Source: Chromohalobacter beijerinckii
Lineage (GTDB): Bacteria > Pseudomonadota > Gammaproteobacteria > Pseudomonadales > Halomonadaceae
Assembly (NCBI RefSeq): GCF_023061185.1
Contig: NZ_JAKGAK010000011.1
Span: forward strand, 1 to 64,000
Direction of reading: 5' to 3'
DNA: 64,000 nt
Shown: piece by piece, positions 6,280 to 22,725 of the stretch
Numbering within the stretch: the stretch's first letter is position 1
Layout: the number at the start of each line of letters is the position of its first letter
Position numbers and translations under genes: made by a program
The notes under the pieces: model-generated
Database searches by the model: none
What the model was told of the DNA's origin: nothing
The model's input: only the letters and a program-made list of their open reading frames with translations

Positions 6280-7611
6280 ATGTCGCCCATCCTGAAATGG
6301 TCCGTCTTCGTCGCCATGGCGGGCTTCCTCTTCGGCTTCGACACTGCCGTGATTTCCGGAGCGGACAGACCCGTGCAAGAACTCTGGGGACTCAGCGATC
6401 TCCAACACGGCCTCTTCATCATGTCGATGGCGCTATGGGGGACGGTACTGGGCGCGATCTTCGGCAATTGGCCCACCGACCGCCTGGGACGGCGCAAGAC
6501 ACTGTTCGCGATCGGCGTCCTCTATTTCGTGTCGGCCGTGGGCTCTGCGCTCGCCACCGACCCGTTCTGGTTCTCCTTCTTCCGCCTGATCGGTGGGTTC
6601 GGCGTGGGCATGTCATCGGTCGCCGCGCCGGCCTATATCTCCGAGATCGCGCCAGCCGAACGGCGTGGCAACCTGGTAGCGCTCTATCAGTTCAATGTGG
6701 TGTTCGGCATTTTCATGGCCTACGTCTCGAACGCGATTCTCGGCAGCTTGCTCGGCGCTGATGCCTGGCGCTGGATGGTCGGTATCGAAGCCGTACCGGC
6801 ACTCGTCTATACCCTAGCACTGTTCAAGGTACCCGAGAGCCCTCGCTGGTTGATCCTCAATCGCCACGACACCCAGGGCGCCGCCGCGATACTGCGCCAG
6901 GTCGATGCCACGCGCGATGTCGATGTGCAAATCGAGGAGATTCAAACCGCCGACCGCGAAGACAACAAGGTTCACTCCCGCTTCTTTTCGCACCGCTATC
7001 GACTGCCGATCACGCTGGCGTTCTTGATCGCCTTCTTCAATCAGTTCACCGGTATCAACTTCGTGCTCTACTACGCGCCACGCATTCTCGAGTCGGCACA
7101 GCTCGGCGCCAGCGCTTCCTTGCTCTCCACCGCCGGCATCGGCTTAGTCATGGTGATCTTCACCATGATCGGCATGGCGCTGATCGACCGCTTCGGCCGT
7201 CGCAAGTTGATGTATATCGGCTCGGTGGGCTACATCATTTCGCTATCGATCATTTCGCACGCGTTCTTTACCGATAACTTGGGCGGCGCGCTGATTCCTC
7301 TTCAGCTATGCCTCTTCGTCGCCGCACATGGCATCAGCCAAGGCACGGTCATCTGGGTCTTCATTTCCGAGATATTCCCCAATCGCGAACGCGCCCGCGG
7401 TCAGTCGCTGGGCAGCTTCACGCACTGGTTCTTCGCGGCCGCGATCACGCTGGTCACGCCCTGGGTGTTGGGCGTTTTCAACGGCGGGCCGGTGTTTGCT
7501 TTCTTCGCCTTCATGATGGTGCTGCAGATCGCCTTCGTTGCCTTCCTGATGCCGGAGACGAAAGGCGTTTCCCTCGAAAAGCTGCAACGCAAACTTTCCC
7601 CGCAGGAGTAA
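6280..7611 (+). CDS. sugar-porter-family MFS transporter
   Basis: The 443-aa protein has about twelve hydrophobic segments. The sugar-porter marks are GFLFGFDTAVISG in helix 1, DRLGRRK between helices 2 and 3, a second DRFGRRK between helices 8 and 9, PESPRWL before the central loop, and PETKG at the C-terminus. Such proteins are usually proton symporters of hexoses, pentoses or polyols; the substrate cannot be told from sequence. I chose the ATG at 6280 because AAGGAG lies just before it; the frame is open further upstream to 6223. It stands alone, with clpB convergent. Confidence 0.88.
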   Translation: MSPILKWSVFVAMAGFLFGFDTAVISGADRPVQELWGLSDLQHGLFIMSMALWGTVLGAIFGNWPTDRLGRRKTLFAIGVLYFVSAVGSALATDPFWFSFFRLIGGFGVGMSSVAAPAYISEIAPAERRGNLVALYQFNVVFGIFMAYVSNAILGSLLGADAWRWMVGIEAVPALVYTLALFKVPESPRWLILNRHDTQGAAAILRQVDATRDVDVQIEEIQTADREDNKVHSRFFSHRYRLPITLAFLIAFFNQFTGINFVLYYAPRILESAQLGASASLLSTAGIGLVMVIFTMIGMALIDRFGRRKLMYIGSVGYIISLSIISHAFFTDNLGGALIPLQLCLFVAAHGISQGTVIWVFISEIFPNRERARGQSLGSFTHWFFAAAITLVTPWVLGVFNGGPVFAFFAFMMVLQIAFVAFLMPETKGVSLEKLQRKLSPQE

Positions 7612-7646
7612 TCGAGCCTGAAGGCGCTGCCCCAGAAGAGAGGCAC

Positions 7647-7675
7647 AAAAAACCCGCGACACAGCATGTCGCGGG
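7647..7675 (-). terminator. intrinsic terminator after clpB
   Basis: CCCGCGACA (7653-7661) and TGTCGCGGG (7667-7675) form a 9-bp stem with a CAGCA loop. On the minus strand the stem is followed by six T (plus-strand A 7647-7652). It lies about 70 bases beyond the clpB stop codon. Confidence 0.85.
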
Positions 7676-7746
7676 CGGGAAGACGGTCAGGACGCGACCG
7701 TGTATGGTGAGAGCATCGGGCGGCCCGGAGTTCCGGGCCGCTCGCG

Positions 7747-10329
7747 TTACTTGGCGAAGACGAGGTGGCCGTCTTCTGTGGTGACGCGGATGGTGTCGCC
7801 CGCCGCGAAATGCCCGGCGAGCAATTCCTGCGCCAGTGGATTCTCGATCCGGCTCTGGATGGCACGCTTGAGCGGTCGCGCGCCAAAGACCGGATCGAAG
7901 CCTACCACCGCCAGCTGTGCCAGGGCGTCGTCGCTGACCTCGAGACGAATCTCGCGCTCGACCAGGCGCGCCTGGAGCCGCTCTAGCTGGATCGCCGCAA
8001 TGGACTGGATCTGCTCCTGCCCCAAGGCGTGGAACACCACCACTTCGTCGATGCGGTTGATCAGTTCCGGACGGAAATGATCGCCCACCACCCCCATCAC
8101 GGCATCGCGCATCACGGCATAATCGGCGTCATCGCCGCCCATGCGCTGAATGATGTCCGAGCCCATGTTGGAAGTCATCACGATCACCGTGTTACGGAAG
8201 TCCACCGTGCGCCCCTGTCCATCGGTCAGCCGGCCATCCTCGAGCACCTGCAACAGGATGTTGAATACGTCCGGATGCGCTTTTTCGACCTCGTCGAGCA
8301 GCAGCACCGAATAGGGCTTGCGGCGCACCGCCTCGGTCAGATAACCGCCTTCCTCATAGCCGACATAGCCCGGCGGTGCGCCGATCAGCCGCGCCACAGA
8401 ATGCTTCTCCATGAACTCGGACATGTCGATACGCACCATGGCCTCCTCGGTATCGAAGAGGAAGTTGGCCAGCGACTTGCACAGTTCGGTCTTGCCGACC
8501 CCGGTGGGCCCCAGGAACAGGAACGATCCATTGGGACGATGCGGGTCGGCCAATCCGGCGCGCGAACGGCGCACGGCGTTGGCCACGGCGGTCACCGCCT
8601 CATCCTGACCGATGACGCGCTCGTGGAGTGCCTCTTCCATGCGCAGCAGCTTGTCGCGCTCGCCCTCGAGCATCTTGGACACCGGGATGCCCGTCCAGCG
8701 CGAGACCACCTCGGCGATCTCCTCCTCGGTGACGTTAGAGCGCAACAGCTGGTGCTTGGCGGTATCCGCCTCGTGCTCGCTGGCCTCAGCGATCTGCTGC
8801 TCGAGCTTGGGAATCACCCCGTACTGCAACTCGGACATACGCCCCAGATCGCTCTGGCGGCGTGCCGCCTCGAGATCGATGCGCGCCTGTTCGAGCTCCG
8901 CCTTGAACTGCGCCGCCCCCTGGATGCTGGCCTTCTCGGCCTTCCAGACCTCCTCGAGATCGGCATATTCACGGCTCAGTTCGTCGATCTGCGCCTCCAG
9001 GGAATCGAGCCGCTTGCGGGTCGCTTCGTCGGTTTCCTTCTTGAGCGCCTCGCGCTCCATCTTGAGTTGGATCAGACGACGGTCGAGGCGGTCCATCTCC
9101 TCGGGCATCGAATCCAATTCCATACGAATCCGCGAGGCCGCCTCGTCGATCAAGTCGATGGCCTTGTCGGGCAATTTCCGGTCGGTGATATAGCGCGTCG
9201 ACAGCTTGGCCGCAGCGATGATCGCGCCGTCGGTGATATCGACGCCGTGATGCACCTCATAGCGCTCCTTGAGGCCACGCAGGATCGCCACGGTGTCTTC
9301 CTCGTTGGGCTCATCAACCAGCACCTTCTGGAAGCGCCGCTCGAGCGCCGCATCCTTCTCGATGTGCTGACGATACTCGTCCAACGTGGTCGCCCCGACG
9401 CAGTGCAATTCGCCTCGCGCCAATGCCGGCTTGAGCATGTTACCGGCATCCATCGCACCCTCGGCCTTACCGGCGCCGACCATGGTATGCAATTCATCGA
9501 CGAACAGGATGACGCGACCTTCTTCCTTGGCAAGCTCCCCGAGCACGGCCTTGAGGCGTTCCTCGAACTCGCCGCGATACTTGGCACCGGCCAGCAACGA
9601 CCCCATGTCGAGTGACAGCACGCGCTTGTCCTTCAACCCCTCTGGCACCTCGCCGTTGACGATGCGCTGGGCCAGACCCTCGACGATGGCGGTCTTGCCC
9701 ACGCCAGGCTCGCCGATCAATACCGGATTGTTCTTGGTGCGCCGCTGCAGCACCTGGATCGTACGACGGATCTCGTCGTCGCGGCCGATCACTGGGTCGA
9801 GCTTGCCATCCCCGGCACGCTGGGTCAGGTCCATGGTGTACTTGTCCAGCGCTTCCCGGCTTTCCTCGGCCGAGGCGTCATCCACCTTGTTACCGCCGCG
9901 CAAGCTGTCGATGGCGCTACGCACGGACTGCACGTCCAGACCGGCCTGCTGGAGCACCTTGCTAATGGTGGTTTTCATTTCCAGCGCCGCCAGCACCACC
10001 AGCTCGCTGGCGATGTATTGATCGCCACGCTGCTGGGCTTCGCGGTCGGCGAGATTGAACAACTGCGACAACGCCGAGGAAAGCTGCACATTGCCATCGA
10101 ACTGACCGACGCGCGGCAGATCGTCGAGATACTGAGAAAGCCCGTTACGCAGGCGCGAGACATCGCCGCCGGCCTTCTGCACCAAGCCCTTGATGCCGTT
10201 TTCCTGCGCCTCGACGAGCGCCATCAGCACATGGCCGGGATCGAGTTGGTTATGACTACGCCCCACCGCGAGGGACTGCGCCTCACCCAGGGCATTTTGC
10301 AATTTACTGGTCATGCGATCGATACGCAT
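7747..10329 (-). CDS. clpB: ATP-dependent disaggregase ClpB
   Basis: ClpB is the Hsp104-type hexameric chaperone that extracts polypeptides from aggregates together with DnaK. The 860-aa protein is full length: N-terminal Clp repeats (1-145), first AAA+ domain with GEPGVGKT near residue 205, the long coiled-coil middle domain (about 400-530) rich in Glu, Arg and Leu, second AAA+ domain with GPTGVGKT near 605, and the conserved [11 protein letters not shown] and SNMGSD segments. The start MRIDRMTSK matches the family. It is preceded by a heat-shock-type promoter and followed by a clear terminator. Confidence 0.98.
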
Positions 10330-16185: not shown

Positions 16186-16560
16186 TCACCAGCATTTTTC
16201 TGGCTGTTTTTGCCCGGTATCGTACAGCTTCAGCACGCCACATTGATCCCCGCTTTGGCTATTGATCGGTATGGCCTTTAGCAGGAAACCATTGCCCTTC
16301 TCTTTATTAGGATTTCGCAGGGCTTCAAACTTGTACGCGTCGCTTTTCTCCTGCTTCGCGCCATCGGTATCGTAGAGATTATCTTGCGTGTACTGACGCT
16401 CCATCCGGTATGCCCACTGCGTCAGCGTGGCCTGGGCGTCGGTCCGTTGCGCCTTGCGTACATAATCGGTGTACGAGGGAATGGCAATCGCTGCCAAGAT
16501 CCCGATGATGACCATGACGATCATCAGCTCGATCAGGGTAAAACCGCGGGCTCGATGCAT
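16186..16560 (-). CDS. pilE: PilE-type minor type IV pilin
   Basis: The 124-aa prepilin has a short basic leader and the class III signal [11 protein letters not shown], so PilD should cleave after Gly and methylate the new Phe; Glu5 of the mature protein is present. The helix [26 protein letters not shown] is PilE-like. A pair of C-terminal cysteines (DQCGVL and EKCW) frames a D-region disulfide loop. The ATG at 16560, with GGAG just before it, gives the normal prepilin length; an upstream open frame to 16677 is ignored. It is the last gene of the second minor pilin set. Confidence 0.88.
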
Positions 16561-16606
16561 GGCATGGACTCCTGAAAACGAAAACGAGACGTTCAACGCA
16601 AGGTAC

Positions 16607-17239
16607 TCAGCGCAAGACCTCGCGCCACGCCGGACGAGTGGGCCCCTCGGGAGAACGGGTAACGCGCGTGTCGTCATTATCGGCCTGCGCCTGGCGGGCT
16701 TGAATCAATGCCTCGCCTGACTCGCGAGGCAACATCAGCGTAACGCGGCGCTCGAGTACCGCATGCGTTACCTGGCGTGTACCCCAGCCGAACGCGGTCA
16801 CCTCGATACGTGCTTGGCAGGGCGCGTCGGCCTCGGAACACGAGCTCGTCAGGACAGTCAGCGTCATCCAAGGCGGCTCGTGAGTATCGAGAGGCATGGG
16901 TGCCCCGCTATCGCCATAGGCCACGCCGTCACGTCGCCAACGAGCAGCCGACCATTGGCTGGCATGCGACGCCTGTGGCATCAGGCAATCAGGCGCCGTG
17001 CAGTCGCCTTGGGCGTCGGGCAGTGTGTAATCCGCATGACGCAATCGCCATTCGCCTTCTTTGAGTGCTGCCTGCGCTGCTTGAAACGCAACTTGTCGAT
17101 CCATGACGTTGCGCGCCATGCGCTCCTGCAGGACCGCGCCCTGCAAGCCGGCGAGTCCCAACGCCGTCATCGCCATCAGCAGAATCAGCGCGACGATCAG
17201 CGTCATGCCCCGTTCCCGAGAGGGGCCGCTGACGTTCAC
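16607..17239 (-). CDS. pilX: PilX-type minor pilin
   Basis: The 210-aa protein starts with [37 protein letters not shown], the hallmark of PilX: a GspK-like pseudopilin helix without Glu5, followed by the conserved QERMARN. PilX proteins sit at or near the pilus tip in the PilV-W-X priming complex. Its ATG overlaps the pilW stop (ATGA), implying coupling. Four cysteines in the central part ([16 protein letters not shown]) could form disulfides. Confidence 0.85.
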
Positions 17240-18003
17240 GATGACGTGTCACCCTGCGAGGTGACAAGCGGCGGGGATGCCACATTACGCAGAGCCACGC
17301 TCGTGGCGTACACCCGATACAGGCGACGATCCGGTGCCGTGACGGTTTCGCCATCGAAGACATAGGATGATGCCGTGTCGACGAGTCCATCCTGCCGCGA
17401 GGCCACCAGCAATTCGATGCTCACACCCTTGACGCTGGCCCAATCGCCGACGCCCGCGGCACGACGCCAACGACCCTCGACGAAATAGCGCAGCGCCATG
17501 GCCTCGACATTCGCATCGAGCGGCTGGGGAGACGTGCCATCCACCGCGCAGTCCAGCCCCTGCGAGGCATTCAGCGATAGCGTCGCCCGCGTGATGTCAG
17601 CACTCTCGAGACCCCCGCCCAGGCAATCCTGCAGAGGCTCATCCGTGCTGCCGTAATAGCGGACCCGCAAGGTGCTGCCGTTCCCCGCCACGATAGCGCC
17701 CTGGGCAAATTGCGATGTCGCCGGAAAGGTCTGCGCCTTTTGCCATTCGGCATACCCCGCCTTGCGTAGCTCCCGTGTCAGCACGTCAGTCACGAAGCGA
17801 CCGCTCTCCTGCACCTGGGCCAGTTGCGTTTGCAAGCGGTACTGATGCTGATAGGCAATGAACAGGTCAATGACGCCAAGCAGCACGATCATGCTCAGCG
17901 CCAGGCTCACCATCAACTCGATCAGCGACACCCCGCTTTGACGGCGCCGCCCCGGAGTGGGTCGCTCAAAGTCGGGTCTGTAATCGATATTGCCGCTGCC
18001 CAT
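17236..18003 (-). CDS. pilW: PilW-type minor pilin
   Basis: The 255-aa prepilin has the processing site SGVSLIELMVSLALSMIVLLGVIDLF, with Glu5 present, and the PilW-like QVQESGRFVTDVLTRELRKAGY downstream. PilW belongs to the minor-pilin complex that primes pilus assembly. I take the ATG at 18003, because GGAG at 18012-18015 is 8 bases upstream; earlier in-frame codons exist at 18009 and 18012. It overlaps the end of pilV by 38 bases and is coupled to pilX. Confidence 0.85.
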   Translation of the reverse strand: MGSGNIDYRPDFERPTPGRRRQSGVSLIELMVSLALSMIVLLGVIDLFIAYQHQYRLQTQLAQVQESGRFVTDVLTRELRKAGYAEWQKAQTFPATSQFAQGAIVAGNGSTLRVRYYGSTDEPLQDCLGGGLESADITRATLSLNASQGLDCAVDGTSPQPLDANVEAMALRYFVEGRWRRAAGVGDWASVKGVSIELLVASRQDGLVDTASSYVFDGETVTAPDRRLYRVYATSVALRNVASPPLVTSQGDTSS

Positions 18004-18427
18004 CGTCATCACTCCAGCTCACACGCGGCGATCGCCAGACCACCTTCACCATCGCCGTCGCCACATCGTCATCGCCCGTCACCTCGATGCAGCCTTGCGC
18101 CTGGGGCAGCGCGCTAACCAGTCCCGTCAGCCAGGCACTTACCTGGGCCGATGCGGCGTTGCCGGGGTCGTCACTGCACGGCTGATCATAGGCACCGGCC
18201 AGCGCGCCGTGACGGTCGATGCGCAAGCGTTCGAGCATGGCCCCCACCCGCTGCACCGCCTGAGACTCGGCATCGGCATGCCGCTGGGCACGCAGTGCCT
18301 GGGTCTGTGTAGCCGTCAAACCCAGCATGCCGAAAGATAAAATGAACAGCGTGATCAGCACTTCGATCAAGCTGAAACCCGGCGTACATCCATGCCGTGA
18401 CCGCGCGCCCCTATGTGTTGCCCTCAT
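17966..18427 (-). CDS. pilV: PilV-type minor pilin
   Basis: The 153-aa prepilin has PGFSLIEVLITLFILSFGMLGLTATQTQALRAQRHADAESQAVQR, a textbook PilV N-terminus with Glu5. PilV is part of the minor-pilin priming complex. Two cysteines (QPCSDD and QGCIEV) could pair. It is the first gene of the second minor pilin set on this strand and reads out of the AT-rich divergent region shared with the plus-strand FimT-like gene. Confidence 0.85.
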   Translation of the reverse strand: MRATHRGARSRHGCTPGFSLIEVLITLFILSFGMLGLTATQTQALRAQRHADAESQAVQRVGAMLERLRIDRHGALAGAYDQPCSDDPGNAASAQVSAWLTGLVSALPQAQGCIEVTGDDDVATAMVKVVWRSPRVSWSDDDGQRQYRLQTRL

Positions 18428-18450
18428 CGTATTTGCTCGACTGCCAAGAC

Positions 18451-18489
18451 TACTTTATAAACAAACAAAGTAAATACTAATATAAAGTA
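18451..18489. promoter_or_regulatory. AT-rich divergent promoter region with 9-bp inverted repeat
   Basis: TACTTTATA (18451-18459) is mirrored exactly by TATAAAGTA (18481-18489), 21 bp apart, in the only short AT-rich tract between pilV (minus) and the FimT-like gene (plus). Each arm contains a -10-like TATAAA/TTTATA word facing outward. This looks like a divergent promoter pair with a shared operator. Confidence 0.45.
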
Positions 18490-18498
18490 AGGCAATCG

Positions 18499-19035
18499 AT
18501 GCATCCAAAATCGCGGCACATGCGAGGAATGACACTGCTCGAATTGCTCGTGATCATCGTCATTGTCGGCCTGCTCACCACCCAGGGCGTCCCCGCCATG
18601 GGTCATGTGCTACGCGATCAACGCTTGCAGGCCGCCAGCCATACGCTCTATCAGGCGCTCTATTACGCGCGCAGTGAGGCTATTCGCCAAGGCGTGCCGG
18701 TGATGATGGTGAGTGATTCAGATGGCTGGGAACAGGGTTGGCGCATATTCGCCGATCGCGACGACGATGGCGAGCAATCGCCCTCGGAGCCGACACTACG
18801 CGCGGGTGGCGCCCCACCCGGCGGACTCCGGCTGCACGCCAATCAGCCCTTGCGTCGCTACGTGCGTTACGCGTCGAACGGCTACTCGATTCGTGCCTCC
18901 GGCAGCTTTCAGATTGGCAGCTTCTATCTATGCACGGCCAAGGCGACGACACCGGCACGGCGGATCGTGCTGAGCCGTGGCGGCCGGGTACGCATCGAGC
19001 GCCTGCCCGATGGTGACACTGCCTGCGCGCGATGA
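18499..19035 (+). CDS. fimT: FimT/GspH-type minor pilin
   Basis: The 178-aa prepilin has RGMTLLELLVIIVIVGLLTTQGVPAM, with Glu5 and Met at +1, then RDQRLQAASHTLYQALYYARSEAIRQ, a GspH/FimT pattern. The C-terminal part has LCTAKATTPARRIVLSRGGRVR, typical of the FimT/FimU domain. It is the only pilin gene on the plus strand and lies between the two minus-strand sets. Its stop is one base from the convergent end of the 690-aa gene, leaving no room for separate terminators. Confidence 0.85.
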   Translation: MHPKSRHMRGMTLLELLVIIVIVGLLTTQGVPAMGHVLRDQRLQAASHTLYQALYYARSEAIRQGVPVMMVSDSDGWEQGWRIFADRDDDGEQSPSEPTLRAGGAPPGGLRLHANQPLRRYVRYASNGYSIRASGSFQIGSFYLCTAKATTPARRIVLSRGGRVRIERLPDGDTACAR

Positions 19036-19036
19036 C

Positions 19037-21109
19037 TCAGTCCGCGTTGCCGTATGACAAGCCTTCTAGAGACCAACCGGAGGCGCTGGAGTTATCATCG
19101 CCGTTGTCACCACTTCCGTCACCGTCGTCTCCTCCACCGCCCGGACCAACGGTCGACTCCATCAGTGCTTCGTCATAGTGAATGCCGGCACCGCCGGAAA
19201 CCTCGACACGCCGTCCTTTCACGGCACCATACAATCCCCCCCCAGCGGCAACATTGACGGTGCTGTAAGGCGCGAAGATGGTGCCCTTGAATGCGGAGGC
19301 TCCGGTGATATTGACGCCGGCGTTCCAGCCGCTGGCACCCTCATCGTTATAGGTCGAGTAGAGAGATAGGATTGGATTGCCGTCGTCGTCAGTCGGGCTG
19401 TCAGACGCCACATTGAGATTGCTGCTCAGGTTGAAACGCCCCTTCTCGGTGACGATCTTCAACGAACTGCCCTCGGCGACGCTGAACGTGGCACCGCCGC
19501 CAATATCGACATCGCCTTTGACGTAGAGCGTCATATCACCGCCATCGACGACGAAGTTGGCACTGCCATTCAGCGAAAAACTGTCCAGCACAAGGACGTT
19601 GGTGGGCTCGGGAAAGATGCCATCGACCGGGACGTCGCGTGAGACCTTGTAGCGCTCGGGATTCGGCACGCTGTTGTTATTACGATCAGACGACACCTGG
19701 AGCCCATTCGGCGTCAGCGTATAAGTCTGGCTGCCACCACCAATCGATAGGCTTCCCGATGAGGCGTAAGGTTCCAGCGCATCGGTCAAGTCGCTGATCG
19801 TCGCCCCATCGCTCGTGGTAAACGCTTCACAGCTTTGTTGTCCATCCTCCCCTTCAGTGGGCTCGGTAACGACTTCAGGTACTTCCGCAACGTCCGGCGA
19901 AGCGGGCTTGATAGCTCCCCCCACCTGCTCGGCCACATCGCGATTACTCGTCGTGCGCACGACCGGCGCGGTGGCATTGCCATCGATGCGCGAACTCCAG
20001 TTGCCGGTGACGATTTCCTTGTTTGCCTCGACGTTACCTTGCACATGCCCGCTACTGGTCAAGCGCACCGCCTTGCGTGAGGCGACATTCCCCCCAACAT
20101 TCGCACCGCCACCATTAATCGTGACATCACCATTGGCGCGGATATTTCCAGAAACACTGCCTCCATTCACCATCTCGACCGACCCACGGCTGCTAACATC
20201 GCCTTGAATATCAGCCCCGCCATTACGAATCACGATATCTCCGTCCGCTTTCAGATCGCCATGGATCGTGCCGGAGTTACCGACGACGATTCGCCCCGCA
20301 GACTCTACATCTCCGTAGACCGGCTGCCCGCTACTCAGGACGATATCGCCTTCCTGAGAACCCTCTTTCTTATAACTGGATTTTATTGTGGCATTACTTT
20401 TATTAGCATTACCATTTTCACCGTACTTTCCATCACGGGAATCGTAACTATCAATAACCCCACCGCCTGATGCGTTAACCCCGTCACAGCCAACCAATGC
20501 ATCTTGGTAAGGACCAGGAGAACTACCAATAGAATAAACGGCACTCAGAATATCTTGCCCACTTTTACCACTAAACTCACCATCACTATCACTTAAACCC
20601 CTTACCCCCCAAAAAATCACCTTTACTCTATCGCCTTCGAGCTTTACGACCTCTTTAATGCCAGCCTGAGTAAAGGCGTACTTTATATCTTCATCGCCAG
20701 ACTCTTCTTCATTGCTACCCTTGCTTTCTTTATCGCTACCCTTCGCATCATCCTGAGCCCTACTTTTGCGCTCATCAGCGGACAACGAAAGAAGGCCTTT
20801 ATGGTCTTCATACGAAATGATAGACTTTTTGCCCTCAACCTCCTTACCCTCAAGAATCTCGCCCACCTTATTCTCAACTTCGACCTTCCAACTTTTCTCT
20901 TTATCTAAGCCAGCACTTTTATCATTATTTTCAAATCGCCAAAAAGCCTCGTCCGCGCCCGCCTCGTAATTATTGGTGCGTACATAATTACCGGCTTGGC
21001 GCTCTTGATACTTCTTGACAGACATGCTGGAAATAACAGCCCCGGACGCCACCGTCAGCAGCAGCATTCCCACAACGAGCACGAACCCGGACTGTTTCGA
21101 TGCCTTCAT
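19037..21109 (-). CDS. large PilX-like protein with bactofilin-like repeats
   Basis: This 690-aa protein begins like a PilX/GspK pseudopilin (SGFVLVVGMLLLTVASGAVISSM, no Glu5, then YQERQAGN). Residues 62-180 are charged and of low complexity. Residues 252-380 hold seven G-D/N-V/L/I turns at 266, 284, 303, 321, 340, 358 and 377, alternating 18 and 19 residues apart, the pattern of a beta-helix such as bactofilin. The C-terminal 500-648 segment (FVVDGGDMTLYVKGDVDIGGG, later GAVKGRRVEVSGGAGIHYDEAL) resembles a conserved domain found with such proteins. A Gly/Asp-rich tail follows. TTAGGAG precedes the ATG. It sits where pilX/pilY1 would be, so a pilus-tip or surface role is inferred. Confidence 0.75.
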   Translation of the reverse strand: MKASKQSGFVLVVGMLLLTVASGAVISSMSVKKYQERQAGNYVRTNNYEAGADEAFWRFENNDKSAGLDKEKSWKVEVENKVGEILEGKEVEGKKSIISYEDHKGLLSLSADERKSRAQDDAKGSDKESKGSNEEESGDEDIKYAFTQAGIKEVVKLEGDRVKVIFWGVRGLSDSDGEFSGKSGQDILSAVYSIGSSPGPYQDALVGCDGVNASGGGVIDSYDSRDGKYGENGNANKSNATIKSSYKKEGSQEGDIVLSSGQPVYGDVESAGRIVVGNSGTIHGDLKADGDIVIRNGGADIQGDVSSRGSVEMVNGGSVSGNIRANGDVTINGGGANVGGNVASRKAVRLTSSGHVQGNVEANKEIVTGNWSSRIDGNATAPVVRTTSNRDVAEQVGGAIKPASPDVAEVPEVVTEPTEGEDGQQSCEAFTTSDGATISDLTDALEPYASSGSLSIGGGSQTYTLTPNGLQVSSDRNNNSVPNPERYKVSRDVPVDGIFPEPTNVLVLDSFSLNGSANFVVDGGDMTLYVKGDVDIGGGATFSVAEGSSLKIVTEKGRFNLSSNLNVASDSPTDDDGNPILSLYSTYNDEGASGWNAGVNITGASAFKGTIFAPYSTVNVAAGGGLYGAVKGRRVEVSGGAGIHYDEALMESTVGPGGGGDDGDGSGDNGDDNSSASGWSLEGLSYGNAD

Positions 21110-21126: not shown

Positions 21127-21735
21127 CTAAGTAAGATCACGCTTAGCCAGATGGAAGGACACACTTTTACTAGAGCATTCTTCACAACCATGATCATAGT
21201 AATTGATAACTACGACGACACCTCTTGGGCTCTGACCCGTCTCACACTCTTTTGTATCTTCTCCTGTAGCGGATAAGCGACAAAATTGGATTGACTCTAT
21301 TCCCGCCACATTTCCAGACGATAAATTAACGATCTTCTTACTTTTAGCACCATTTCCAGGCTGACACAAAAAATCGGCGCCATCAGCATAATAACTTACC
21401 GACCCTGCAGAGCTTTGCCCATTTTGATCAGCCCCCGCCCCTGGACATTTTATTTTTTTAATACCATCACTTGCCGTCGAATTAAACGACGTCAATGTGA
21501 GCCGACTTCCTTCATCACTTACTTCGATTTCCTTCGCCACCTTGACGGAAGAAGCGAGCGCCCGATGTATATACATCAGCTCGTCTTGCAGCTTGTAATT
21601 GTTATCCCGCTGCTCACTAACACTACTGATCGCTTGGTACGCCGTGATCGTGCCGCCGAGGATGATCAAGCCAAGAAACATGCTGATCATCATTTCGATC
21701 AGCGTGAAGCCTCGTTGGCGATGCTGGTTATTCAT
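21127..21735 (-). CDS. PilW-like minor pilin
   Basis: The 202-aa prepilin has RGFTLIEMMISMFLGLIILGGTITAYQAI, with Glu5, typical of PilW. The rest is Ser, Gly and Lys rich with five cysteines (KCPG, FLCQP, QFCRL, ECET, CEEC). The ATG at 21735 gives a normal leader; the frame is open upstream to 21804 inside the preceding gene. It lies 17 bases before the large PilX-like gene. The 3' half is visibly AT-richer than the surroundings, like the start of the next gene. Confidence 0.82.
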   Translation of the reverse strand: MNNQHRQRGFTLIEMMISMFLGLIILGGTITAYQAISSVSEQRDNNYKLQDELMYIHRALASSVKVAKEIEVSDEGSRLTLTSFNSTASDGIKKIKCPGAGADQNGQSSAGSVSYYADGADFLCQPGNGAKSKKIVNLSSGNVAGIESIQFCRLSATGEDTKECETGQSPRGVVVVINYYDHGCEECSSKSVSFHLAKRDLT

Positions 21736-22183
21736 CCGCTGGCTCCTCGCATGGCAAGAAGGTGACAAGTTCCACGGTGTTATCGTCTTCACTGCCCCAC
21801 TCAACGGTCAGAGTATAATAGCGTCCATATTCATTGTTATTGTCAGAAAAAGGGGCACTCTTATTGGCGGTTGCGCCAGGCAAAAGTACCTGCGTACCTT
21901 CGCCTAGGGCTGCGACATCGCCCTGCCACTTACTCAAAAGCCCTTCAGGGCCCTTAAGATTCTCACAAGTTTCATCCTGCTGCGCCCAGGCGCGTTCGTT
22001 CATGTCTCGGACCATGATGGTGGCGATTGTCGTATTGAGACTCTCGCGGGCGGACTGCAAAGACGTGAGCTGCATCGCGGCGAGCCCCAGCATGCCGATG
22101 GAGAGGATGGTCAGCGCCACCAGCACTTCGATCAGACCGAAGCCGCGTTGGGCACGAGGGAGGGGCTGCATCGGCAGTGCCAT
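21728..22183 (-). CDS. PilV-like minor pilin
   Basis: The 151-aa prepilin has QRGFGLIEVLVALTILSIGMLGLAAMQLTSLQSARESLNTTIA, a clear PilV N-terminus with Glu5. The ATG at 22183 shares a base with the stop codon of the upstream FimU-like gene (TGATG), and the 3' end overlaps the next PilW-like start by 8 bases. Two cysteines (ETCENL and FLPCEE) could form a disulfide. It is a paralogue of the pilV gene at 17966. Confidence 0.85.
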   Translation of the reverse strand: MALPMQPLPRAQRGFGLIEVLVALTILSIGMLGLAAMQLTSLQSARESLNTTIATIMVRDMNERAWAQQDETCENLKGPEGLLSKWQGDVAALGEGTQVLLPGATANKSAPFSDNNNEYGRYYTLTVEWGSEDDNTVELVTFLPCEEPADE

Positions 22184-22725
22184 CACGAGCCGCACTCCTC
22201 GCCCGGCTCGGCGACATAAGCTCGTCCGGTCATCGTCAAGCACACTTGGCGTGAGGCGCCGTCCGACAGTCCCGCATGGCTGAGACGCCACTCGGTGCCA
22301 CCGCCGGGATATCCAAGTTCATCGAAGCTCAAGCTGGCAGGTGGCGAGGGGTTATCAGCGATGTCGAGTCGCTCGGGAAACGGTTGATGGACGGCGATCG
22401 TGTCTTTTGCCTTCGTGTCATCATCAAAAGTGGCCTTTAATAGCCAACCTTTTGCCCAGTCGTCGCCCCCGCATGTCGCCCCGTCGGCACTCGCACACAG
22501 CGTGACCTCATCCTCGCGCATGATGGCTTCACCGCGCGCCAGGCGCAGCGCGGCGACTAGTTCATTGCTGGCGTCGGTGAGCTGTTGCTGCTGGCGCAAG
22601 GACTGAAAGCTGGGCACGGCGATGCTTGCCATGATCGCAAAGATCACCAGCACGATCAGCAATTCGAGGAGGGAGAAACCACGGCTATGCGACACGTGGC
22701 GAAGGCGATAAGCACGATGCGGCAC
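22183..22725 (-). CDS. fimU: FimU/GspH-type minor pilin
   Basis: The 180-aa prepilin has SRGFSLLELLIVLVIFAIMASIAVPSF, with Glu5, and QLTDASNELVAALRLARGEAIMREDEVTLCAS, the FimU/GspH pattern, plus the C-terminal RQVCLTMTGRAYV. The GTG start at 22725 has AGGAAGT five bases upstream. It is the first gene of the pilin set adjacent to ispH, the position fimT/fimU-type genes take in Pseudomonas relative to the ispH block. Confidence 0.86.
   Translation of the reverse strand: MPHRAYRLRHVSHSRGFSLLELLIVLVIFAIMASIAVPSFQSLRQQQQLTDASNELVAALRLARGEAIMREDEVTLCASADGATCGGDDWAKGWLLKATFDDDTKAKDTIAVHQPFPERLDIADNPSPPASLSFDELGYPGGGTEWRLSHAGLSDGASRQVCLTMTGRAYVAEPGEECGS

Follow-up and report, generated by a model that had tools for sequence, protein, structure and literature searches.

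A 690-residue protein that we call long PilX, encoded on the minus strand at positions 19037 to 21109 of the Chromohalobacter beijerinckii DNA analysed here (64,000 nucleotides, positions 1 to 64,000 of contig NZ_JAKGAK010000011.1 in assembly GCF_023061185.1, hereafter the window), is probably a modular minor pilin at the tip of a type IVa pilus, which it would cap in the manner of ComZ, replacing PilX and PilY1 together and bearing an exchangeable binding head. In diderm type IVa pili, PilY1 has been described as the tip effector and priming factor, and both PilX and GspK, which lack Glu5, have been placed atop their minor pilin complexes, with PilX carrying PilY1 (PMC10191384, PMC7541494). 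The known kind to which long PilX belongs is that of modular tip pilins, ComZ being the closest in layout; it stands out by the swapping of its heads and because PilX plus PilY1 have been replaced repeatedly at one chromosomal slot. The titles and opening lines of abstracts that were searched hold no description of long PilX or its locus, and none of the DUF7305 domain that it carries. PilY1 is absent from a large group of genomes that share this secretin and have a fused alternative at the same locus, which makes the question of what a pilus tip must do directly testable by tip swapping.

A long minor pilin with a large head

An earlier note on this DNA, made from its letters, gave the right coordinates for the gene; the strand, which it had not stated, is minus. 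The gene and its parts, all on the minus strand, are as follows.

19037..21109 (-): long PilX-type minor prepilin with a DUF7305 beta-solenoid head, predicted, 690 residues (sequence, Pfam, AlphaFold model)
20930..21109 (-): residues 1-60, prepilin leader plus hydrophobic helix, with Val at mature position 5 (sequence; helix 8-60 in the model, at low confidence)
20519..20929 (-): residues 61-197, remaining pilin part, including a hypervariable spacer at about 81-120 (comparison and model)
19130..20518 (-): residues 198-660, predicted beta-solenoid head, swapped as a unit between strains (model, fold matches, strain comparison)
19952..20356 (-): residues 252-386, rungs of 18/19 residues that enclose the Pfam Bactofilin match, their number varying among homologues (repeat analysis, Pfam, alignment)
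20486..20488 (-): Cys208, one of only two cysteines, in a putative disulfide (alignment)
19829..19831 (-): Cys427, the second cysteine, its putative partner (alignment)
19160..19585 (-): residues 509-650, DUF7305, PF23981 (Pfam)
19079..19147 (-): residues 655-677, Gly/Asp-rich linker, modelled at low confidence (sequence, model)
19052..19078 (-): residues 678-686, strand at the C-terminus, proposed to be the last one in the pilin sheet (model; pairing by analogy with ComZ)

The N-terminus reads MKASKQSG|FVLVVGMLLLTVASG..., where the bar marks the expected prepilin cut; cleavage would thus fall behind Gly8, the leader is followed by a hydrophobic helix, and mature position 5 is Val, in keeping with the PilX/GspK-type helix without Glu5 that had been noticed before. 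The conserved C-terminal domain of that same note is DUF7305 (PF23981), which scores 58.8 bits (cut-off 27) over residues 509-650, and the search for bactofilin and DUF7305-type domains that it proposed finds both Pfam families above cut-off, Bactofilin (PF04519) matching residues 277-367 at 44.2 bits (cut-off 27.9). In the whole 3.34-Mb genome long PilX is the sole match to either family at an expect value (E) of 0.001, and an NCBIfam scan of the protein gave no match at E 0.1. Cys208 and Cys427 flank the variable rungs and are both kept in 32 of the 41 family proteins of alignment A1 (long PilX and 40 homologues) and in 28/28 rows of alignment A3, a count that is biased because a motif near Cys208 was used to gather A3. 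A 15-row subset of the 41 family members served as a search query.

PilY1 and DUF7305 share one chromosomal slot

Among 151 Halomonadaceae genomes, all of which match PilQ (149 over its cut-off), DUF7305 is present in 47 and PilY1 in 56 when counted by Pfam or in 60 when counted by a profile of local PilY1 proteins (A5), the latter figure counting in a borderline hit (G147, E 7.7e-4) and a fragment at the end of a contig (G117). Both occur together in only three (G038, G061 and G072), against 18.7 expected with PilY1 at 60 (Fisher p 2.2e-9). Shared ancestry inflates this test, and the labels were hence also shuffled inside genera: three or fewer joint genomes then arose in 0 of 20000 shuffles (mean 9.6) with PilY1 at 60 and in 12 of 20000 (mean 8.6) with PilY1 at 56.

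The two designs also occupy the same place. The chromosomal block ileS-lspA-fkpB-ispH ... thiO-nadE-yfiO contains 26 of the 40 DUF7305 loci that were fetched and 18 of the 20 PilY1 loci (of the other two, L061 is placed in the block by its other flank and L073 is not). In the first design the minor pilin operon closes with a long DUF7305 PilX, and PilY1 is found in the same stretch in 1/26 of these loci (L057, with both designs in tandem); in the second, a short PilX-type frame of 177-262 codons, stop to stop, directly precedes PilY1 in 19 of 20 loci, L061 having a longer frame there. The survey of this locus in other Halomonadaceae, which the earlier note had suggested, thus finds that the slot carries either short PilX and PilY1 or the long DUF7305 protein. 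On a tree of IspH, LspA and IleS (59 rows, each a locus, built by a quick method), DUF7305 requires a minimum of 8 changes and PilY1 a minimum of 7, the starred branches forcing at least 7 and at least 5, respectively, so that repeated switches between the two are needed. The suggestion that this protein acts in place of PilY1 therefore has strong comparative support from the nearly exclusive occurrence, the shared slot and the repeated switches.

Genomes with neither protein are not simple losses, since in most of the regions fetched the slot is filled. By the Pfam counts there are 51 such genomes, of which 20 were tried; IspH was matched in 18 and 19 regions were fetched. In 11 regions the slot is taken by a long PilX-like protein that lacks DUF7305 (335-430 residues from script-chosen starts); the others have a PilY1 that Pfam had missed or cut in three (L144, L147 and L149), for which reason PilY1 was recounted by profile, and something else or nothing clear in five (L145 and L150-L153). 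The long PilX-like proteins without DUF7305 (L135-L143, L146 and L148) are a third occupant of the slot. Ten of them were scanned: nine pass the PilX_N cut-off, none matches DUF7305, and Pfam matches to their heads are absent or weak, such as the sub-threshold pAdhesive_15 match of L146 (21.1 of 23.8 bits). In L138 two different long PilX proteins stand in tandem in one operon (6625-7860 and 8177-9352). Three DUF7305 proteins (L084, L094 and L100) have an extra C-terminal module of about 200 residues after DUF7305, which by eye looks like the heads of the third form (e.g., L139 and L141).

The family reaches well beyond the window. Besides the 40 homologues aligned from the same bacterial family, there are more in Aeromonas, Shewanella, Thiocapsa and Motilimonas, the gene order pilE-fimT-pilV-pilW-DUF7305 recurring in Aeromonas and Shewanella, and in L111 (Thiocapsa) and L127 a DUF7305 set stands beside a PilY1 set. 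In the class as a whole DUF7305 is less common, passing its cut-off in 12 of 274 genomes, the present Chromohalobacter genome included, and the class-wide hits also include very long open frames, of about 920-1730 codons, that belong to other families.

The head is exchanged independently of the pilin part

Long PilX closes an operon-like run in which it follows fimT1, pilV1 and pilW1; 17 bases, a GGAG among them, separate its ATG from pilW1. Among ten members of the genus this first set diverges far more than its surroundings, with median identities, rough because they come from stop-to-stop frames, of 53% for long PilX, 52% for PilW1, 67% for PilV1 and 74% for FimT1, against 80-89% for a second set in the same cluster (FimT2, PilV2, PilW2 and PilX2), 96-97% for the flanking IleS, LspA, IspH, NadE and YfiO, and 92% for ThiO. 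The PilE median (65%) was not used, as the best-scoring frame had been taken, whereas PilE falls into two frames in two of the genomes and a contig end truncates it in one.

There are two types of head, about 30% identical, which do not track the pilin part. Type A is found in the window and in G001, G025, G064, G093, G100 and the Salinicola genome G087, type B in G041, G053, G075 and G085. The pair G085/G093 shares 100% of amino acids in the pilin part and 32% in the head, G053/G001 97% and 31%; conversely, G041 and G053 have heads 99% identical and a middle part at 50%, the Salinicola protein matches the window protein at 77% in the head and 19% in the pilin part, and G041, the nearest row to the window in the tree, has the other head type. 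The DNA, with positions counted from the start, behaves likewise. In G085/G093 identity is 97-99% from -449 to +450, 39-53% from +601 to +1650 and 68-93% beyond; in G053/G001 it is 83-97% from +1 to +600, 38-57% from +601 to +1800 and 85-99% beyond, but the 450 bases that precede the start, which belong to pilW1, reach only 54-57%. Over 45 pairs, which are not independent, Spearman correlations are 0.02 between pilin part and head, 0.78 between PilW1 and pilin part (G053/G001 being an exception to this covariation) and 0.14 between PilW1 and head. Breakpoints and correlations together put the exchange boundary close to the predicted domain boundary and indicate that PilW1 tends to co-vary with the docking part. 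Sequence comparison of these strains therefore shows a head that recombines independently of the pilin part. Such recombinants are natural chimaeras that mark the module boundary, useful for finding ligands and tip-binding phages.

A larger predicted solenoid rather than a bactofilin rod

The AlphaFold2 model of long PilX, built from 28 sequences, has a predicted local distance difference test (pLDDT), averaged in ten-residue blocks, of 84-96 over the rungs (251-400), so that the beta-helix that had been proposed at 252-380 is predicted confidently, and of 73-94 over 501-650. Modelled alone, the head (residues 198-660) has a mean pLDDT of 85.9 and a predicted template modelling score of 0.86. 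The model is best matched by the C-terminal domains of tapirins (4wa0, 6n2b and 6n2c), the top-ranked group in VIA-align 2 with Z 17.1-19.9 for the whole model (4wa0: Z 19.9, 285 residues, 3.4 A) and 16.7-19.8 for the head alone (4wa0: 19.8). Ice-binding proteins follow at about 14-15 (6bg8 with the whole model: Z 15.0, 208 residues, 3.6 A; FfIBP, 4nu2, with the head alone: Z 14.8), and ComZ (6qvi) aligns with residues 37-687 of the whole model at Z 14.6 (370 residues, root mean square deviation 9.4 A) and with the head alone at Z 14.5 (249 residues, 3.8 A). The head is thus predicted to be a larger beta-solenoid of the ice-binding/tapirin/ComZ kind extending over 198-660, and the extra folded module of this pilin is, as predicted, of a type that is not pilus-specific. 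At the sequence level, a profile of the head finds most ice-binding entries of the PDB at E 0.008-0.04 and a bactofilin at 0.06; tapirins and ComZ are absent from its matches up to E 10. The ice-binding-like adhesive domain PF20597 is matched in two of eight distant relatives (L128 at 33.2 and L132 at 34.7 bits, cut-off 23.8) and by 6 of the 41 family members at E 0.01 or better.

The repeat itself is as regular as had been described, with seven turns of the form G-D/N-V/I/L/A at exactly 266, 284, 303, 321, 340, 358 and 377 (spacing 18/19/18/19/18/19). Self-identity of the protein at lag 37 is 29 of 98 positions, against 9 expected and attained in 0 of 5000 shuffles, and a chain of seven turns was attained in 0 of 300. 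In the 41 proteins, long PilX included, the 122 spacings are 18 (63), 19 (42), 20 (16) and 17 (one), and 49 of 82 adjacent pairs alternate 18/19. The spacing that the earlier note expected to be conserved is thus predominant among homologues, except that nine of the 41 have a chain of only one or two turns, often attained by shuffles, in which the repeat is unproven. The number of turns differs among homologues, and in one of them (L048:8550-10679) the alignment has extra rungs inserted in frame, as if the beta-helix grows by repeat duplication.

Bactofilins form polymers in the cytoplasm, and the earlier note read the repeat as a bactofilin-like, polymerising rod borne by a pilin, a reading that we consider very improbable. 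In its favour, long PilX has rungs of 18/19 residues as bactofilins do, its Pfam match to PF04519 is above cut-off, 31 of the 41 family members match that family at E 0.01 or better, and the bactofilin 6ria appears in PDB profile searches at E 0.041-0.06. However, most ice-binding entries outscore 6ria (6 of 7 in one search and 7 of 9 in another), the matches that span the head are tapirins, ice-binding proteins and ComZ, the repeat number is variable, and PF04519 is below cut-off or absent in all eight distant relatives, in which DUF7305 is above cut-off (8/8). As the head profile favours ice-binding entries, the Bactofilin match is best taken as beta-helix rungs inside a larger solenoid, of which the 18/19 repeats are one stretch of variable length. 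Bactofilin structures are absent among the Foldseek and VIA-align matches listed, which does not exclude a bactofilin; a bactofilin homologue in the strict sense was rejected and kept as a rival only, given that the Pfam match fails to extend to distant relatives. The prepilin leader, moreover, argues for export, unlike cytoplasmic bactofilin polymers, and sets the rungs of long PilX, as the variable part of a solenoid carried by a pilin, apart from those of bactofilins.

A probable tip pilin with a ComZ-like layout

ComZ of Thermus thermophilus is a tip-associated competence pilin (PMC6561018). It has a GspK-like pilin fold, into which a solenoid resembling FfIBP is inserted ahead of the final strand, and Gly at mature position 5, and its authors argue that it fits only at the pilus tip. 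Long PilX likewise is a large pilin without Glu5 (Val5 vs Gly5), is encoded with small pilins and is predicted to have a big solenoid head of the ice-binding type followed by a last C-terminal strand. In the model strand 678-686 comes after the head, as in a ComZ-like layout, and the extreme C-terminus stays alike when heads differ (80% identity over a tail of about 15 residues vs 31% in the head for G053/G001). Tail and strand fit a ComZ-like layout with an inserted head, in which strand 678-686 would pair with the pilin sheet. The earlier note was right that there is a Gly/Asp-rich stretch (at about 655-677); it is not the whole tail, which consists of this linker plus the predicted strand behind it, and it probably leads to the last pilin strand. 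The differences from ComZ are also clear, since the PDB profile search up to E 10 gave no sequence-level match between the two, long PilX has regular 18/19 rungs, DUF7305 and a conserved Cys pair, it occupies the PilX slot of a PilY1-type locus, and its ligand is putative whereas that of ComZ is DNA.

The same likeness raises a rival, which we regard as unlikely, namely that long PilX serves natural transformation as a DNA receptor of the ComZ type at the pilus tip and is not an adhesin. This draws on the layout shared with ComZ, which binds DNA (PMC6561018), on a ComEC-family protein in the genome and on the head mosaics, which show that the genus recombines. However, a ComEC-family protein is also matched in 10 of 14 control genomes, E. 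coli included, and the FimT and ComP-type pilins of the same cluster are alternative DNA receptors (as is FimT3 in Xylella; PMC9956873). The acidity of the head (isoelectric point 4.4, 57 acidic vs 31 basic residues) is a weak point against DNA, since ComZ also has no positive patches and proteins of halophiles are acidic anyway (the pilin part has an isoelectric point of 5.1). The rapid exchange of heads is more in keeping with an arms race over ligands or phages than with DNA binding. Tapirins are surface attachment proteins of Caldicellulosiruptor (PMC9933333). An adhesin is thus preferred over a DNA receptor because of the tapirin fold match, the adhesive-domain matches in some relatives and the rapid exchange, none of which is decisive.

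Other modular tip pilins, such as PilB and PilC of Streptococcus sanguinis, CofB and TcpB, similarly have a functional module grafted on a pilin and expected at the tip (PMC8179133, PMC10191384). The module of long PilX differs in being a solenoid exchanged between strains. A global survey of modular pilins started from the N-terminal domain IPR012902, which we take to be the methylation motif, and need not therefore include PilX_N-type proteins. With PilX plus PilY1, long PilX shares operon position, chromosomal slot and the absence of Glu5 (PMC7541494), and differs in being one chain without a PilY1 domain whose head would be inserted in the pilin, whereas PilY1 is a separate secreted protein.

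How the tip might work, and what weighs against it

In the mechanism that we propose, PilD would cut the prepilin leader of long PilX, which would dock by its helix on PilW1, PilV1 and FimT1, as GspK docks on GspI and GspJ, start pilus assembly and then remain at the tip. The head, inserted before the last pilin strand, would face outwards and bind a ligand on some surface, most probably a polysaccharide or another polymer exposed there, so that one chain would perform the job of short PilX plus PilY1 in relatives. A protein in the PilX slot with a head of its own, in a genome without PilY1, most simply does both jobs, and swapping of heads could allow a change of ligand or escape from tip-binding phages without rebuilding the assembly interface. 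The broader proposition, to which we give as much credence as doubt, is that a whole lineage of type IVa pili dispenses with PilY1, having an exchangeable ligand-binding solenoid fused into the PilX slot, the tip being an allelic cassette system in which the pilin part co-evolves with PilW, heads recombine inside and between genera, and designs repeatedly replace each other at one slot.

Several points weigh against a ligand-binding cap that replaces PilX and PilY1. (i) Tip position and ligand binding are argued from analogy, and a shared fold does not reveal a ligand. (ii) The pilin part is modelled with low confidence (pLDDT blocks of 39-78 over residues 1-200), and the pairing of strand 678-686 with its sheet is likewise drawn from analogy. 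(iii) Foldseek scores are weak (best E 6.7e-4, template modelling scores 0.17-0.21), hence the fold statement rests on VIA-align, which merely re-aligns Foldseek's list. (iv) PilX_N (PF14341) scores 13.7 bits on long PilX, below its cut-off of 25.5, and it is operon position and relatives (31 of the 41 family members match PilX_N at E 0.01 or better) that still place the protein in the PilX slot. (v) Three genomes hold both DUF7305 and PilY1. (vi) Of the DUF7305 loci, 14/40 lie outside the ispH block, three with FimT-PilV-PilW, two with a PilE-like pilin only and nine with no recognised minor pilin. (vii) A second set of minor pilins in the same genome, with a PilX2 of its own, could be the working tip.

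Neighbouring pilin genes

The genes around long PilX in the window are the following.

21127..21804 (-): PilW1 minor pilin, hypervariable and co-varying with the pilin part, true start probably the ATG near 21735 (Pfam, comparison)
21728..22291 (-): PilV1 minor pilin, which probably starts further in (Pfam, NCBIfam)
22183..22725 (-): FimT1/GspH-type minor pilin, with which the operon begins (Pfam)
18499..19035 (+): FimT2/GspH-type minor pilin, convergent (Pfam)
16186..18427 (-): second minor pilin set PilV2-PilW2-PilX2-PilE, without PilY1 (Pfam, NCBIfam)

No match to PilY1 (PF05567) was found in long PilX, in either minor pilin set or, by Pfam and profile, in the genome. We find it quite improbable that long PilX is an assembly primer only, with a head that acts in the secretin as a spacer or plug, the real tip being formed by PilX2 from the second cluster. 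The greater conservation of the second set in the genus (medians of 80-89% vs 52-74% for the first) would suit it; however, a passive spacer is not expected to show two heads about 30% identical swapped between close strains, and in relatives such as L088-L090 the DUF7305 set is the sole such set found at the block.

A mobile or phage origin of long PilX was rejected: searches of 72,556 plasmid and 50,697 phage records at E 1e-5 found nothing that matches the protein, and three candidate stretches in viral contigs encode no relative. The set in L057 that matches the second set of the window (16186-19035) retains PilY1, which has thus probably been lost from the second set here. The genes for FimT2 (plus strand) and long PilX (minus strand) end one base apart, at 19035-19037, in a convergent junction, and PilE of the second set (16186-16677) matches PF16732, the family of the DNA-uptake receptor ComP, at E 5.7e-19.

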